Virus record (IMG/VR): IMGVR_UViG_3300027770_000188
Span: 1-30,991 of that record
Direction: 5' to 3' (one strand)
DNA: 30,991 nt
Source of the DNA: a virus
The stretch's first letter is position 1. Each line of letters begins with the position of its first letter. This document shows positions 1-25,233 of the stretch, one piece after another. Position numbers and translations under genes: made by a program. Under the pieces are notes generated by a model, which was given only the letters and a program-made list of their open reading frames with translations, did not search any database and had not been told where the DNA came from.

Positions 1-3000
1 AATCTTTTGATATCTCTACTACAGATTTATCAGCAGCCTCAGGAGCCGCAGCAGCCTTAGGAGCCGCAGCAGCCTTAGGAGCCGCAGTGGTAGCCTCAGG
101 AGCCGCAGCAGCCTTAGGAGCCGCAGTGGTAGCCTCAGGAGCCGCAGCAGCCTTAGGAGCCGCAGTGGTAGCCTCAGGAGCCGCAGCAGCTTTTCTTTTT
201 GCTAATTCGGTTTGAATTAGTTCAAGAGAATATCCTTCCACCTCTAAACCAATAACAACATCTTTTCCAGATAAACCAAGTACAACAAATCGAACATCAA
301 GCTGGGAACGTTCGTCTTCAGGCATTTTATCTACTTCTGCAATTGCTTGTTCAAGTGATTTTGTAGATACTCTTGAGTCAATAACACCCCTTGATCCTTT
401 AAGTATTTTATCTCTAATTTCAATATTAGTTTTGTGTTTAAATTTATTTTTAACAGCTATATCTGCTTGGGATCGCTTAAGAGCTTCATCTTGTGTCTCA
501 TCTAGTACCCAATGAAGTCCAAGCCAATCATTATCAGCAATTGATGAGGCAATTTCTGCTGCTTTTTCAAGTTGCAGTTCAGATATTCCCATTTTCTTGG
601 CTTTTGCCTTAGTTTTATCATTAACTTTAACACTTAGTGTTGGAGCCGCAGGAGCAGCCTCAGGAGCCGCAGCAGCCTCAGGAGCCGCAGCAGCCTCAGG
701 AGCCGCAGCAGCCTCAGGAGCCGCAGCAGCTTCTTCGCGAGCAGCATCAGCCGCATCAGCCTTGTCCCTTGCGTCACGGATTTCGTTTCTAAGTCTATCC
801 ATTATTTCATTTGTGGCTTCTAAAAGAGCACTATCTTCTCCTTCTCCAGCAGCCTCAGGAGCTTTAGGAGGGGGAGTCCCAGTACTAGTATCAACTTTCT
901 TTGGAGATAGTTTAGATCTAAACATTCCAAGTAAAGGAAGATCTAAGAATGAAACTCCAACACCTTTGTTATTAGGTCCTAAAGCAGCTTCTGCTTCGTC
1001 TAATACACCATTTGTTAGGTCTATTTGTTCTTGACCAATACTTCTACCAAAGATATCATTAATTTCTGAGACAGAATCAGCACCCAGTTTAGTGACTAAA
1101 CCTTGAGTTTGTTCTTCTATCTTATCAGCTAAATCATATAAATCCTGATCAGTAACCTGATAAAAATTAGATGTATGTGTGTATTCCCCACCACTATGTT
1201 GAGTTACAATAGTTTTTCCTTTTTTTGCTTGGTCAGATTCTAATAATGATTCTAATAGTCTATTTCTTTGCGATGAAGAAGATCTAGAACTTGGGTCTAT
1301 AGAATCCATAGCAGCTAAATAAAAAACTGCTTCTACATCATCTCTTGATAAAGTAGATACTCCAGTTTCTTCGTTAGTTGTACGATCCATTAAAGCAGAT
1401 AATCTTTGTGCCATGTCAACACGAACACGAAACTCTTGTTTCTTGTCTCCCCCAGACATTATACTAATTGCCTGTGCTATAAAAGGATTTTCCTTTCCAT
1501 TAGCTTGACTGTCTGAAACAGATAGTAAATCACCTAATCCAAGTCTATCTACTTTATCCATAAGAATATTTAATCTAGCTTGTGTTGATAGAGCACCTTT
1601 AAAGTCTTCAAAAGAAACGCCATCTGGTATACCCATAATAACCCTAGTAGCTAAATCTATATCCCTTGCTATACTGGGTTTTAATTCTGGTAAAGAACCT
1701 AATAAACCTACTTTACCTTTGTTTATTTGTCTATTAACATATTTACCCATATTTGTAGTACTTACTCTTTCGCCTACTTTACCAATTAATCTAATTGGGC
1801 CACCAAGAACTAAACCACCAATACCCTCTTCTATAGCATTTTGAACTACTGCTGAAGCACTAAAGTGTTCTTGGAATCCATTTGACATAGCTTCATATTG
1901 TTGAACACCAGATTCTACTACACCTTGTGCTGCTTCTCCAATAAAAAGTGCTGTAGATTTTTGTACAGTTTTTTTAAACAATGAAGTACCAGCTTTAGCT
2001 TCCGCAAAAATACCTCTAGTAGCTGGCATACTGTGCAGTATAGTTTCAGTTATATTGCTAGGAAGTATCTTTTGGGCTTTCCATAAATATTTATTTACTT
2101 GGGCTACTCTTGCACTAATAGATTCAAATTTTTCAAATGCGTTAGCAGTTTTTAATGCTTTTCTAATTAATGAAGAAGATTTTGCTGCTCTCTTCATTAA
2201 TAAAGCAGTTCCACCTATTGCACCATAGGTGCCTCCAGTAAAAAAGGTTAACGCAGCTGTTACCCCTATTTCAGCTAATTGATCATTACTATTAAAAGAA
2301 TTTACAACTAACGGTAAAGCTTGTGCCCCAAAAAAATACTCTAAACCACCTGCTTGTTTTTGGTACTCATTTATTGTAACTCCATATGCGTATTGATCTA
2401 TAGCATCTGCAATAAAATATTTAAATTGTAGTGGAGTATTTGCTGCGTTTTCTACGTCTTTTGGTTTAAGTTGCATTTCATTAAACAATAAATTATGTAA
2501 ACCAGGTTCTGCAATTTCTAATTCCGCTATTGCTTTTTTAGGGTCCCATGATTCTGGTTTTTCACTATCTGCTAAAATATCTAATACAGTATCTCCAGCA
2601 TAGGCACTAAATGGTACTGATCCTTTTAAATTAATTAAAGAAGGAGAACCTCTAATCCAACTCTCTAATTTTTGATCTGTTTTAGCTGTGTCTGTTAACA
2701 TTTCCCTTAAATATGTGCTTCTTGCTATTGCAGTAGCCCATAATTCACCCTTAATTCCACCCCGTGCTCTAACAGCAGCAATTACATTTGCTTGAGCATT
2801 TCTTCCTAATACTTCTGTAAATTGTGGTCCAGCTGCTTCTTTGTCAAATAGTTTACCCCATAAAGAAGCAGCTCTAAAATTCATATTATATACACTTGAA
2901 AAACTATTAGCTGCAGATTTAGGTTGAAAGAATTCAACAGAATCTGAAAACAATGCAACACTTAGTAATGGACTATCTTCTCTATTAATTTTCCAACTAT

Positions 3001-3349
3001 CTAATAACTTAGAAGTTGCTGAAGGATTAGATCCCATTTGCCTTTCTATATACTTTTCCTTATCATCTAAATAACTACTCTTAGCCTTAATATCTATATC
3101 TTCTAATTCTGAACCAGGTATATATTTTCTTTGCTCTTCTGTTCCTCTTAGAAACTCTAAAAAAGTATCGTTTTCTTTTTTTACTTCTTCATCTGTAAGA
3201 TGTAAACCAGGTAAATTAAAAGATACTGGTTTGGTTGTAATAGAATTTTGTGATTTATTTACTAAAGAAGAAATTTTATCTAATGTTAATTGTTCTCTAT
3301 TAGACTTATACGGAGAATTGTCAATATTGAATTGTTGAAAAGTTGACAT
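1..3349 (-). CDS. gp16-like internal virion (ejection) protein, C-terminus off window
   Basis: This reading frame is open from an ATG at 3349 to the left edge (1116 complete codons) without a stop, so the protein is incomplete. It begins MSTFQQFNIDNSPYK. An AAGGAAG ribosome binding site lies inside the end of the upstream gene. Length, position directly after gp14- and gp15-like genes, and hydrophobic glycine/alanine-rich helices near residues 350-385 and 500-520 fit a T7 gp16-type ejection protein, which is injected to form a channel across the envelope. I saw no lytic transglycosylase motif in the part present. Residues about 870-900 and 1050-1105 are repeats of AAAPEA and TTAAPKA units, separated by a charged segment of about 150 residues with normal composition. 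Assignment rests on context and size rather than a recognised domain; a large virion-associated enzyme is an alternative. Confidence 0.65.
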   Translation of the reverse strand, partial: MSTFQQFNIDNSPYKSNREQLTLDKISSLVNKSQNSITTKPVSFNLPGLHLTDEEVKKENDTFLEFLRGTEEQRKYIPGSELEDIDIKAKSSYLDDKEKYIERQMGSNPSATSKLLDSWKINREDSPLLSVALFSDSVEFFQPKSAANSFSSVYNMNFRAASLWGKLFDKEAAGPQFTEVLGRNAQANVIAAVRARGGIKGELWATAIARSTYLREMLTDTAKTDQKLESWIRGSPSLINLKGSVPFSAYAGDTVLDILADSEKPESWDPKKAIAELEIAEPGLHNLLFNEMQLKPKDVENAANTPLQFKYFIADAIDQYAYGVTINEYQKQAGGLEYFFGAQALPLVVNSFNSNDQLAEIGVTAALTFFTGGTYGAIGGTALLMKRAAKSSSLIRKALKTANAFEKFESISARVAQVNKYLWKAQKILPSNITETILHSMPATRGIFAEAKAGTSLFKKTVQKSTALFIGEAAQGVVESGVQQYEAMSNGFQEHFSASAVVQNAIEEGIGGLVLGGPIRLIGKVGERVSTTNMGKYVNRQINKGKVGLLGSLPELKPSIARDIDLATRVIMGIPDGVSFEDFKGALSTQARLNILMDKVDRLGLGDLLSVSDSQANGKENPFIAQAISIMSGGDKKQEFRVRVDMAQRLSALMDRTTNEETGVSTLSRDDVEAVFYLAAMDSIDPSSRSSSSQRNRLLESLLESDQAKKGKTIVTQHSGGEYTHTSNFYQVTDQDLYDLADKIEEQTQGLVTKLGADSVSEINDIFGRSIGQEQIDLTNGVLDEAEAALGPNNKGVGVSFLDLPLLGMFRSKLSPKKVDTSTGTPPPKAPEAAGEGEDSALLEATNEIMDRLRNEIRDARDKADAADAAREEAAAAPEAAAAPEAAAAPEAAAAPEAAPAAPTLSVKVNDKTKAKAKKMGISELQLEKAAEIASSIADNDWLGLHWVLDETQDEALKRSQADIAVKNKFKHKTNIEIRDKILKGSRGVIDSRVSTKSLEQAIAEVDKMPEDERSQLDVRFVVLGLSGKDVVIGLEVEGYSLELIQTELAKRKAAAAPEATTAAPKAAAAPEATTAAPKAAAAPEATTAAPKAAAAPKAAAAPEAADKSVVEISKD
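37..189 (-). repeat. Tandem 18/21-nt in-frame repeats (Ala-Pro-Glu/Lys)
   Basis: Eight consecutive units of 18 nt (cctcaggagccgcagcag or its cctt variant) and 21 nt (ending cagtggtag) occur here, read on the plus strand. They mostly alternate as a 39-nt higher-order unit seen three times. All units are multiples of three and encode AAAPEA/AAAPKA/TTAAPKA on the minus strand, so copy number can change without a frameshift. Confidence 0.95.
658..729 (-). repeat. Four perfect 18-nt in-frame repeats (AAAPEA)
   Basis: Four identical copies of cctcaggagccgcagcag (plus strand) lie inside the gp16-like gene. The unit is the same as in the tract at 37-189, about 470 nt away, so the two tracts probably share an origin by slippage or internal duplication. 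Confidence 0.95.
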
Positions 3350-7579: not shown

Positions 7580-8260
7580 TTAGTGTGGACCCATACCAGG
7601 TATAAAGGTTGGATTTCCACTATAACTAGTAGCCGCTCCAGCAATACCTGCACCAATTTGCAACATACCAGAAACAACCCCACCAGTAGCAGCTGCATTA
7701 GCATCTCCTAATATAGGTGCTTCATCATACAGTTGGATATTAGGCATAAAGATATTTTCTGTTTGTTGTGAGAGCATATTTTGTGTTTGATTATCAATAT
7801 TTTTAGCTTGGGCTAGTCTATTTTTTTCTAGTTGAACTGCATTTGTTAATCCACTTATAGCTTGCATAGCAGCCAGTGTTCCATACATTCCACTATTAGA
7901 AGATATACCACGTAAAGCAAATGAGGTTAATAAAGAACTTTTTTGATTTCTAAGGCTATCTGAAAGTTCTTTTTGTTGAAAGTTTGTAGAGTCACTTAAA
8001 GATTCTTTATTATCCCGTTGAAAAGAGTATGCAGATTTAGCTATTGCATCATTTTTCTTTAATTGTTGGGCATATAAATAAGATGCTTGGAATTGCTCTC
8101 TAGCATTAGAAAGTGTTTTTTGAGAATTACTTTGAATCCATCGACGATAAGCTGCGTCGTTAGCCTGTTGTATTTCGGCTTTTTTAGCTAGTCCACCAAA
8201 AATTGAACTTGCTCCACCAGCAATAGCTCCACCAATTGCCATAATTGTCATTGGTTCCAT
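7580..8260 (-). CDS. gp14-like internal virion protein B
   Basis: A 226-aa protein with an AAGGAG site 7 nt before ATG. The N-terminus is a Gly/Ala-rich hydrophobic segment (about residues 5-24, IMAIGGAIAGGASSIFGG). A long Gln/Asn/Ala-rich helical region follows, then a second Gly/Ala-rich segment near residues 190-212. T7 gp14 (196 aa) and its marine podovirus relatives have this layout; gp14 is ejected first and is thought to form the outer-membrane part of the DNA channel. It follows terL with an 11-nt gap and precedes the gp15- and gp16-like genes, as expected for the ejection module. The hydrophobic ends and helical middle are visible; the functional assignment follows from the family and order. 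Confidence 0.75.
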   Translation of the reverse strand: MEPMTIMAIGGAIAGGASSIFGGLAKKAEIQQANDAAYRRWIQSNSQKTLSNAREQFQASYLYAQQLKKNDAIAKSAYSFQRDNKESLSDSTNFQQKELSDSLRNQKSSLLTSFALRGISSNSGMYGTLAAMQAISGLTNAVQLEKNRLAQAKNIDNQTQNMLSQQTENIFMPNIQLYDEAPILGDANAAATGGVVSGMLQIGAGIAGAATSYSGNPTFIPGMGPH

Positions 8261-8271
8261 GAATTAACTCC

Positions 8272-9933
8272 TTACCAACCCCATTGGTTTCTTTTTGATT
8301 TTTGTTTTTGATTGGTTGCAACAACCTTTGTAGCACCACTAGTTGGGGCATAGTCACCAGCCCTAAAATTATTAGCCCAGTCATGAATTCTTTTCTTCCA
8401 TTCTTTATCTTTAATGTCTTCAGAAGCCCTCTCTGTATCTAAAGACATATGTGATTTATAGAATTCTACAGCTGCTGCAAGAACGTCTACTCTATCGTCA
8501 TGCTTTAAAGCACCACGACCAGAATGTAATCTAGTTAATTGTATTTGATTTGTTTGATCTTTCATAGCTTTTCTAGCTACGACTAATCTATGCATAGAGA
8601 TTACAGGTTCTAAGGTTGAAATAATTCTTAATTCTTTTTGACCTTTAACTCTATATTCTTCTATACCAACCTTACCACAATGATTTATTAAATAAGGAGT
8701 AAGGACTTTAGTAAATAATCCATCACCAAAATTAGATTCTACTCTAACTAAGGGAATATGGTATTCATTTACTAACTTAGCAATCTTAGCTAAGACATGA
8801 TCATCATACCCACCTTGGATACCCAGTAACTCATGGACAAAGATAACTCCACTTAATACAGAGGAAATACATATGCCTGTCTCATCAGTTCCTCTGCCGC
8901 TGGGATCTATACATAGGTGGCTATGTTGATATTTAATATATTTGTTACTAATAAACATAGGATCACATATGTGATCACCAGTCATACCAAAGCTAGGAAC
9001 ATCTCTCATTGGATTCTGCCCTTGCCAGATTATCTTATCTGGACCAAGCTCAGGATCTAGATCCATGACTATTAGATCCCTAAGCTTTAATGGGTATCTA
9101 TCCGCATCGGCTAGGGATGTTACCAGCTTGTATTGCAGGGCATAGTGGCTAGGGCCGATTTTAGCCCGTCTGGAGCCAAGCTCGTCCTTATTGAACCGTT
9201 CGGGCTGTGTTGCCTCTCCTGCCTCCAGATCCAATCCTAGGACCCAAGGAGCCACGTCCTCTACCTCGTAGGGAAGAGAGGTATCTGGCATCTCGGCAGG
9301 ATACTTAATCATGGGATAGGATTCTTTTAGGATATTGTAAATAGAGTCCTGATAATGGGGTGTACCTAAGAAGATTACTCTAGAGTTCTTATTCCTAATA
9401 CTTTCTAGTTCTGCTAACTTCTTAAGTAAAGCTTCTTTACCAACTGGAGTTTCATTCTTACCCGAGATTTCAATATCGTCTAGGACTACACGGTCAGCGT
9501 GTAAACCTGTGATCTGACCTGTGATGCCTCTAGCAGCACAGTTTAGATCTTGTGTAAACTTGGTTCTAACCGCTAGGTTAAAACCAAGTGCATTGTCTTT
9601 ATCCTCGTCCCGAGGTATCATATAGTGACAATAAGGGACTACAGATAGGATCTTTCTAGCCTGAGAGACAAAATCGATAGCTTTACCCTGGGTATTTGAC
9701 AATACTAGGAAGGTTAAATTAGGGTCCCTAAGCCATTCCCAGCTCGCTAGGCAAGCTGTGATGGTAGACTTACCCGTACCGCGTCCTGCGGCTATGATGG
9801 CATCTGACTGCCCTTCTTGGATCTCTCTGGCTAATTCATACTGTATCTTAGTAGGTTCCCCAAGTCCTAAATGCTTAAAGCAAAAATATAGATGGTTTCT
9901 AAAATCATTGATTACTTCTTGGGGAACTTTCAT
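8272..9933 (-). CDS. terL: Terminase large subunit (gp19 / DNA maturase B)
   Basis: A 553-aa packaging motor ATPase and headful/concatemer nuclease. Walker A is GRGTGKST at residues 50-57, Walker B is VVLDDIE at 149-155, and the coupling motif is FLGTP near 188-192. The C-terminal RNase H-like nuclease acidic residues are visible as CIDPSGRGTDETG (D343, D350), VESN (E399) and KHDDRVD (D479, D480, D483). The C-terminal tail is basic (KQKSKRNQWGW). Length is close to T7 gp19 (586 aa). Its ATG overlaps the TerS stop (TAATG), so the two subunits are translationally coupled. The protein acts at the portal vertex, moving DNA into the prohead. Confidence 0.96.
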   Translation of the reverse strand: MKVPQEVINDFRNHLYFCFKHLGLGEPTKIQYELAREIQEGQSDAIIAAGRGTGKSTITACLASWEWLRDPNLTFLVLSNTQGKAIDFVSQARKILSVVPYCHYMIPRDEDKDNALGFNLAVRTKFTQDLNCAARGITGQITGLHADRVVLDDIEISGKNETPVGKEALLKKLAELESIRNKNSRVIFLGTPHYQDSIYNILKESYPMIKYPAEMPDTSLPYEVEDVAPWVLGLDLEAGEATQPERFNKDELGSRRAKIGPSHYALQYKLVTSLADADRYPLKLRDLIVMDLDPELGPDKIIWQGQNPMRDVPSFGMTGDHICDPMFISNKYIKYQHSHLCIDPSGRGTDETGICISSVLSGVIFVHELLGIQGGYDDHVLAKIAKLVNEYHIPLVRVESNFGDGLFTKVLTPYLINHCGKVGIEEYRVKGQKELRIISTLEPVISMHRLVVARKAMKDQTNQIQLTRLHSGRGALKHDDRVDVLAAAVEFYKSHMSLDTERASEDIKDKEWKKRIHDWANNFRAGDYAPTSGATKVVATNQKQKSKRNQWGW

Positions 9934-20112: not shown

Positions 20113-20291
20113 TTCTTCTTCATCTTCTTTCCAGCCTTTTTCTTAACTGGGGCTTTCTTCTTAGGCATTGGTTGTTCTTGAGGCATTTGTCCCATTTGTG
20201 ATTCCATTGATCCAGGACCCATGCCTGTTGGCATACCGCCCATACCGCCCATACCGCCCATACCGCCCATCATTTGTTGTAATCTGCTCAT
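20109..20291 (-). CDS. 60-aa Met/Gly-repeat protein with polylysine tail
   Basis: The N-terminal half contains four MGG units (residues about 8-20) and further Met/Gly/Gln residues; the C-terminal 18 residues are almost all lysine (KKKAPVKKKAGKKMKKK). The stop overlaps the next ATG (ATGA). The Met/Gly part resembles the Gly/Met/Gln-rich C-terminal tail of the portal protein in this genome (MQLMGQGGMPNG), so a virion or DNA-associated role is conceivable. The ribosome binding site is weak (GAGATAA). No known family recognised. Confidence 0.6.
   Translation of the reverse strand: MSRLQQMMGGMGGMGGMGGMPTGMGPGSMESQMGQMPQEQPMPKKKAPVKKKAGKKMKKK
20232..20267 (-). repeat. Four 9-nt tandem repeats (GGCGGTATG)
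   Basis: Four perfect copies of cataccgcc (plus strand) encode Gly-Gly-Met on the minus strand inside the 60-aa gene. The unit keeps the frame and could expand or contract by slippage. Confidence 0.95.
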
Positions 20292-24501: not shown

Positions 24502-25233
24502 TTATTGAGTCCAGTTATTAACCAGTAAGGCTAAGTCCTGTGAGTTTACTGTGCCGTCTCCGTTAATGTCATGGGGATTAGGTTTAAAACTAGTAGATCC
24601 CCAGTCGGCTAGGAGTTCACCCATGTCTTGAGCTGTTATTAAACCATCATTATTAAAATCACCCTGTAAAGCAAGACCAACAGTTGTATTGGTTAAAGAA
24701 CCAGTAACAATGTTTCCACCTACACAGCAACCATATACAATGCATTTTGCTGGGTATTGTGGATTAAGGGGTAGGTTGTCATATAGGATAACTTCTGATT
24801 GACCTAATCCAATTACTTTAAAGACAAACTTACACATCTGGGCTGGCTCTGTGGTTACAATCCATTGGTAACCTAGTACTCCATAGCAATAGAACATCCC
24901 ATTACCATCCTGTGGAGGAACTACTTCGTTACATAGAGTATAATCATTATTAGGAAAGGTAGAGTATCCAGCCATAACTCCAACATGAGATCCAATTAAG
25001 GATACTCCTAGGAGTTGTAGTTTGGTATTGTCCCATCCAAAGGGTACATCAGCCACTACAAACCTCTGTGGGGCATTCTCAGCTGATACCATGAGCTGTA
25101 CCTCAATGATATCATCTAGTGCCACAGCCTGTTGTGGGGTTACTAGGGATAGGTTAAGCTTGGCTGTGGGGTCGTTTTGAGCCATAGCCATATTGGTCAG
25201 ACATACTAAAAAAAGACAAAATAAAAGTTTCAT
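24502..25233 (-). CDS. Secreted cohesin-like plus dockerin type I protein
   Basis: A 243-aa protein. Residues 1-18 (MKLLFCLFLVCLTNMAMA) are a signal peptide with an AxA cleavage site, so export is expected. Residues about 25-180 look like a cohesin-type beta sandwich (LNLSLVTPQQAVALDDIIEV, then PFGWDNTKLQLLGV). Residues 191-243 are a dockerin: loop 1 DFNNDGLITAQD (192-203) and loop 2 DINGDGTVNSQD (222-233) have the calcium ligands in place. Each is followed by LLxxW/LVxxW (LLADWG, LVNNW). This dockerin style is typical of planctomycete surface and extracellular proteins. The start has AAAGGAAC; the gene directly follows fibre genes and ends at a terminator. It may mediate calcium-dependent attachment at the host surface. 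A virion role is less likely with a signal peptide. Confidence 0.85.
   Translation of the reverse strand: MKLLFCLFLVCLTNMAMAQNDPTAKLNLSLVTPQQAVALDDIIEVQLMVSAENAPQRFVVADVPFGWDNTKLQLLGVSLIGSHVGVMAGYSTFPNNDYTLCNEVVPPQDGNGMFYCYGVLGYQWIVTTEPAQMCKFVFKVIGLGQSEVILYDNLPLNPQYPAKCIVYGCCVGGNIVTGSLTNTTVGLALQGDFNNDGLITAQDMGELLADWGSTSFKPNPHDINGDGTVNSQDLALLVNNWTQ

Follow-up and report, generated by a model that had tools for sequence, protein, structure and literature searches.

Repeat-bearing linker and lone facing cysteines in presumed ejection proteins of an uncultured T7-like phage clade

How large ejection proteins exit a narrow tail and stay connected is unsettled for short-tailed phages; according to PMC8954989 and PMC10172136, other short-tailed phages probably pass their ejected proteins through the narrow channel partly unfolded. 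The DNA analysed here (the window, a whole virus record of 30,991 bp representing an uncultured T7-like phage clade) raises this question in a concrete form. At one end it encodes a presumed ejection protein, P3, in which two repeat tracts precede a C-terminus that is missing, the gene being truncated by the contig end because the window is the entire record. What do these repeats do, and what lies at the end to which they lead?

Genomic setting and the repeat tracts

The terminase large subunit (TerL), portal, tube and nozzle proteins of the window matched T7-type families in Pfam and PHROGs, and the gene order P1-P2-P3 was found both in the window and in the relative G001, with the counterparts of gp14 and gp15 assigned by position only (Table 1). 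That the P3 gene belongs to a T7-like module for morphogenesis and ejection, with P3 as its third ejection-module protein, is supported; P3 is presumed to be an ejection protein, its presence in the virion being read from gene order. The gp16-like identity given to P3 in a sequence-only reading of this DNA reduced to position, since no transglycosylase or gp16 family match was obtained and a fourth protein of 3,999 aa follows in the relative.

Table 1. Features of the ejection module in the window
Feature	Position (bp)	Strand	Remarks
P3 (P0001), repeat-bearing protein	2..3349	(-)	1116 codons seen, open at contig end
P3 conserved core, residues 1-816	902..3349	(-)	alignment A3, 10 homologues, 23 invariant columns
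First linker tract, AAAPEA repeats	653..730	(-)	18-bp unit x4.3, 100% matches (Tandem Repeats Finder)
Charged 150-residue segment between tracts	191..640	(-)	small helix/strand bead, conserved in L002
Second linker tract, AAAPEATTAAPKA repeats	31..190	(-)	39-bp unit x4.2, 95% matches (Tandem Repeats Finder)
Start of P3 C-terminal tail	2..30	(-)	Cys-bearing part in relatives falls beyond the window
P2, gp15-like by position, 1404 aa	3354..7568	(-)	no family match
P1, gp14-like by position, 226 aa, no Cys	7580..8260	(-)	no family match
Terminase large subunit (TerL)	8272..9933	(-)	phrog_38 E 6.1e-82, PF22530 E 6.4e-34

Relatives were located with TerL as the anchor. The TerL search returned 80 loci, in which P3 was read where enough sequence followed; one further P3 (L110) was found by the profile of P3 itself, and more diverged P3 proteins were located through gene order. 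Loci that were short or unlisted, among others L026, L030, L038, L042, L043, L048, L055, L071, L077, L079, L080 and L082, were not read. A search with the P3 core matched 14 of 50 records. TerL proteins of isolates were at most 38% identical to that of the window among the 30 matches listed, and all 2566 were below 60%; among 50,697 phage records, neither P0001 nor the first 1500 residues of P4 found a match, and no isolate of the clade was found there.

The missing end of the gene was recovered from a 69,006-bp virus record (L002/G001), whose P3 core was 94% identical to that of the window. Its whole P3 (L002:8001-11687, 1228 aa) continues for 35 residues past the last codon of the window, which places the part missing from the window at about 35 codons, and the gene of P4 (3,999 aa) begins 3 bases after the P3 stop codon. 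Across the relatives, the P3 and P4 genes overlap or lie at most 15 nt apart. By eye, proteins resembling a T7-type RNA polymerase, a primase/helicase and a DNA polymerase were also recognised in G001.

Neither Pfam nor PHROGs gave a reliable match for P1, P2, P3 or P4. P0001 and the P3 of L002 matched no family in either collection, bar one PHROG at E 0.023, and the best PDB matches of the P3 profile (E 0.0064, an engineered endonuclease) and of the P4 profile (E 0.012) were judged to be chance. The best Pfam match of full-length P4, PF10263 (SprT-like), had an E value of 0.068, below the cut-off, and no PHROG fell below 0.3.

Several further features were recorded. The P4 of G001 (L005:3917-15916, 3999 aa) contains a stretch at about residues 585-763 that resembles a DnaQ/RNase H-like exonuclease (FDLEW, GHNILG, RSLDT). 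The motifs were recognised by eye in a confident strand/helix stretch; Foldseek gave RNase H-like matches only at E 0.48 and above, and in several relatives a scan for the motifs did not recover the full set. The same protein has a HEISH metallopeptidase-like motif, with the SprT-like match falling at residues 2636-2669. A 389-aa collagen-like protein with GPTGPTG/GATGATG repeats is encoded in the tail-gene region of G001 (L007:5249-6418), and no counterpart was seen among the listed window ORFs of at least 80 aa. In the window, a 243-aa ORF (24502-25233) contains 3.3 Cys per 100 residues and has by eye a dockerin-like C-terminus (GDFNNDGLITAQDMGELLADWG ... DINGDGTVNSQDLALLVNNW), features that are unusual for a phage structural gene. 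A perfect 9-bp tandem repeat (CATACCGCC x4.3) lies at 20232-20270, near the capsid and scaffold genes on their 5' side.

Both repeat tracts noticed in the sequence-only reading proved genuine: Tandem Repeats Finder delimited them, and bases 1-729 contained 158 repeated 15-mers, whereas none of 200 base shuffles contained any. The charged segment of about 150 residues said to lie between them was likewise recovered, giving the order AAAPEA tract, segment, AAAPEATTAAPKA tract from the N- to the C-terminus. The repeats use approximately one codon per residue (Glu is GAG in 8 of 8 cases, against GAA in 48 of 55 in the core), so that one DNA unit was probably expanded recently. An assembly artefact is an unlikely source of the repeats: L002, a separate record, carries its own, different repeats. 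Assembly does break down at the P3 linker repeats: the window stops 30 bases beyond its repeat tract, and L019, L044 and L068 stop within theirs. The segment between the repeats matched no Pfam family, and when it was sought in viral contigs, none of 52 pattern matches was confirmed.

In the AlphaFold2 model of the window P3, the pLDDT of both tracts was about 27-38 and secondary structure was absent, a picture that fits a flexible linker, low pLDDT being compatible also with a polyproline-type extended rod. Values were below 50 throughout residues 877-906 (AAAPEA tract) and 1059-1116 (AAAPEATTAAPKA tract). The 150-residue segment was modelled with helices and two strands at moderate to low confidence. 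Most of residues 80-350 of the core reached pLDDT 70-94, and residues 355-459 fell below 50. Hydrophobic 19-mers occurred near residues 320-460 in most homologues, but L002 and L027 had no segment that passed the cut; in the window protein the only one above the cut lies at residue 1019, which is not in the core. Residues 1-6 of P4 were also below 50, and the P4 N-terminus is thus modelled as probably flexible.

Lone cysteines at the facing ends of P3 and P4

All 18 complete P3 proteins, which form 12 groups below 50% identity, contained exactly one Cys each, located 1-7 residues from the C-terminus. Were each single Cys placed at random along its protein, it would fall among the last 7 residues in all 12 representatives with a chance of about 1e-26, a value that ignores shared ancestry. 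The eight P3 proteins cut by contig ends, including that of the window, were all free of Cys, which agrees with a sole Cys at the terminus. On the other side of the gene junction, the first 400 residues of all 15 P4 N-termini in alignment A6 included one Cys each, located between positions 3 and 6, and this Cys was the sole invariant column of the alignment; a sixteenth P4 N-terminus, that of L123 (G033), had Cys 4. Five full P4 proteins (3999-4172 aa) contained 3, 1, 2, 2 and 4 Cys, and in an alignment of four full P4 proteins the terminal Cys was the only invariant one.

The P2 proteins (n=12) had 0 or 1 Cys, never terminal. As a control, the corresponding large proteins of six isolates (T7, HTVC025P, Limnohabitans phage, BB8, CRP-403 and S2B) were examined: 11 of 12 were free of Cys, and in the twelfth the single Cys lies 172 residues before the end. 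Position and size were the basis for assigning the S2B pair, the Limnohabitans pair, CRP-403 gp33 and HTVC025P gp38, which are hypothetical in their records. Avoidance of cysteine may be general among T7-like ejection proteins. The small ejection protein of T7, gp14 (L129:1729-2319), has its only Cys at residue 2, and T7 gp15 and gp16 have none. The literature covered, consisting of titles and abstracts with few subscription papers, contained nothing on terminal cysteines or disulfides in ejection proteins, and term searches found neither 'cysteine' nor 'disulfide' in the review PMC8954989 and in PMC12633501. In other parts of the virion, for example the tail and portal-vertex proteins of crassviruses, disulfides have a stabilising role according to PMC10172136.

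Two phages further removed from the window seem, by gene position and profile comparison, to have P3 and P4 as a single ORF. In G050 and G051, whose TerL proteins were 52-54% identical to that of the window, one ORF of 3242 or 3258 aa occupies the place of both genes; L075 and L078 begin the same fused ORF, which is open at their ends. The N-terminal 560 residues of the fused ORF matched the P3 profile (probability 94.5%, P 7.7e-8, 249 columns), and the C-terminal 650 residues matched the P4 C-terminus weakly (probability 25%, P 7.6e-4, 264 columns). The crossed comparisons of the two halves were negative (0.4% and 0.6%); when P4 and the fused ORF were compared as profiles over their whole length there was no match, and the C-terminal pieces alone aligned, weakly. 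The fused ORF contained 0 or 1 Cys (position 2283), and the terminal Cys pair was missing.

Taken together, we consider the chances about even that a disordered linker tethers the P3 core to a Cys tip that couples to P4, most likely by a disulfide. P3 would consist of a folded core, a disordered and rapidly remodelled Ala/Pro/Glu linker, sometimes with beads, and a short Cys-bearing C-terminal tail. The Cys tip would pair with the N-terminal tip of P4, for which a disulfide of two otherwise lone cysteines is the most likely chemistry and not the only one. On ejection, the P3 core, probably inserted into the membrane, would lead, and P4 would trail, anchored by the tether, with both chains behaving as one string in the way that the fused ORF does by peptide bond. 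Coupling of P3 to P4 is suggested by the facing termini; we infer membrane insertion of P3 and exit of P3 before P4. If so, the lone-Cys pair on facing ends of adjacent ejection-module proteins offers a testable form of covalent towing and a sequence signature for it.

A more specific version, which we put forward tentatively, is that the module encodes an N4-like ejection polypeptide in two pieces, the tail Cys of P3 being disulfide-stapled to the 4,000-residue P4 so that both leave the capsid as one tethered string. On this two-piece disulfide reading, wrong pairing would be prevented, since other cysteines are nearly absent; a limit is that some P4 proteins have 1-3 additional Cys. A disulfide would also need matched copy numbers, and the comparable T7 proteins are unequal, at about 12 gp15 and 3 gp16 according to a note in the record. 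The bacterial cytoplasm is reducing, and the P3-P4 disulfide would therefore have to form late.

It is rather unlikely, in our estimation, that the terminal cysteines function otherwise, in P3-P3 or P4-P4 disulfides, in metal binding or in docking on the portal or tail, with the linker as a mere spacer. The same sequence conservation would be expected under such roles, the Cys position drifts by several residues, and P3 and P4 are probably oligomeric, as the T7 proteins are; against this, the products of adjoining genes carry the two lone cysteines at ends that face each other, and the pair is missing where one ORF spans both.

Variation of the P3 linker

Coupling through the tips leaves the linker itself to be accounted for. 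The P3 proteins of the window and L002 were 95% identical with no gapped columns over the first 720 residues, against 78% identity and 130 gapped columns beyond residue 720, and the number and content of the repeats differ between the two. Relative to the window, L002 carries an extra insert of roughly 75-100 residues, which matched L015 (39% over 89 residues). Over their first 720 residues, L051 and L060 were 96% identical, with 10 gapped columns; beyond, they had 383 gapped columns, owing to an insert of about 370 residues within the L060 linker. This insert (L060:19768-20967), missing in the close relative L051, showed no significant Pfam family. Where one protein of a pair was truncated (L044/L046 and L053/L060), the gapped columns were left out of account. 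The close pairs L054/L074 and L033/L034 had 0 and 1 gapped columns, their length hardly changing, and linker variation is therefore not universal.

The linker regions of L061 and L029 had a 92-residue stretch in common at 53% identity. This module (L029 about 1040-1150, L061 787-877), shared despite distant P3 cores and by eye also present in L110, matched no Pfam family, and its identification as a WYL-like domain was withdrawn. The P3 cores of L029 and L015 were 25% and 19% identical to that of the window. To judge from these alignments, small domains, or beads, are evidently exchanged within the linker region.

Of the 18 complete P3 proteins, 15 had a tract of at least 16 residues rich in A/P/E/T/V/Q/S close to the C-terminus, and tract length across homologues ranged from 0 to about 90 residues. 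L033 and L034 have TQGTPIDTGA-type repeats in place of the Pro/Ala tract. L110 lacks a Pro/Ala tract yet keeps the terminal Cys; the linker is therefore not strictly needed. This homologue, together with the one-codon usage and the lineage-specific repeat units, is what would be expected if the repeats were neutral slippage in a tolerant linker, with no role and separate from the terminal Cys. We regard that explanation as quite improbable, given that low-complexity tracts recur at the same place in 15 of 18 distant homologues, against 2 of 12 proteins of the isolates, in which they are short and located elsewhere in the protein.

Very improbable is the rigid Pro/Ala spacer serving as a periplasm-spanning ruler, which the sequence-only reading had suggested. 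Its composition, the tracts flanking a folded segment and an extended rod compatible with the predicted disorder all fit a ruler, but a ruler is hard to reconcile with a tract of such variable length, with the replacement of its composition in L033 and L034 and with the insertion of beads of 75-370 residues. Homologues without the repeats and with the same function, named in advance as telling against the proposal, do exist in the same genomic position, 'same function' being read from gene order. That the Cys codons are kept by a nucleotide signal for translation coupling at the P3/P4 junction is scarcely credible despite the close spacing of the genes, since Cys is the last to seventh-last residue of P3 and residue 3 to 6 of P4, a varying spacing that makes a fixed DNA or RNA motif hardly possible.

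The P3 repeats thus look like a disordered, fast-changing linker and not like a ruler, and their action as a tether is well supported. This suggests that Pro/Ala repeats in ejection proteins are exchangeable tethers rather than rulers.

Comparison with known systems

In its Pro/Ala/Glu/Lys composition, the P3 linker resembles periplasmic spacers of the TonB/TolA type. The likeness drawn earlier to such spacers holds for composition and fails for family, as no TonB or TolA family match was found; in P3 the linker lies between core and tail, with neither length nor composition conserved.

With the T7 ejectosome (gp14/gp15/gp16, Autographiviridae), the module shares the order of a small, a large and a larger protein in the structural region, and the proteins are nearly free of Cys in both. 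It differs in having four genes instead of three, the last one giant, and P3 showed no family match and no transglycosylase domain. The lytic domain of T7 gp16 is a transglycosylase; the record of this protein (internal virion protein D) reads 'with endolysin domain'. Unlike P3, T7 gp15 and gp16 have neither a terminal Cys nor a low-complexity linker.

The virion RNA polymerase of N4 (gp50, Schitoviridae) differs from the present proteins in being one chain, where we find two, the break between them being flanked by lone terminal cysteines. P4 gave no match to an RNA polymerase, and no sequence similarity between the systems was found. The arrangement of parts may be alike. As described in a preprint (PMC12633501), gp50 has an N-terminal domain able to enter membrane nanodiscs and a low-complexity linker of about 100 residues (907-1006) that could span up to 250 angstrom, via which the giant enzyme part remains membrane-anchored. 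Set beside gp50, P3, its linker and P4 would correspond to the anchor, the low-complexity linker and the giant part, distributed here across two genes, and the same order of parts may recur within one ORF in G050 and G051.
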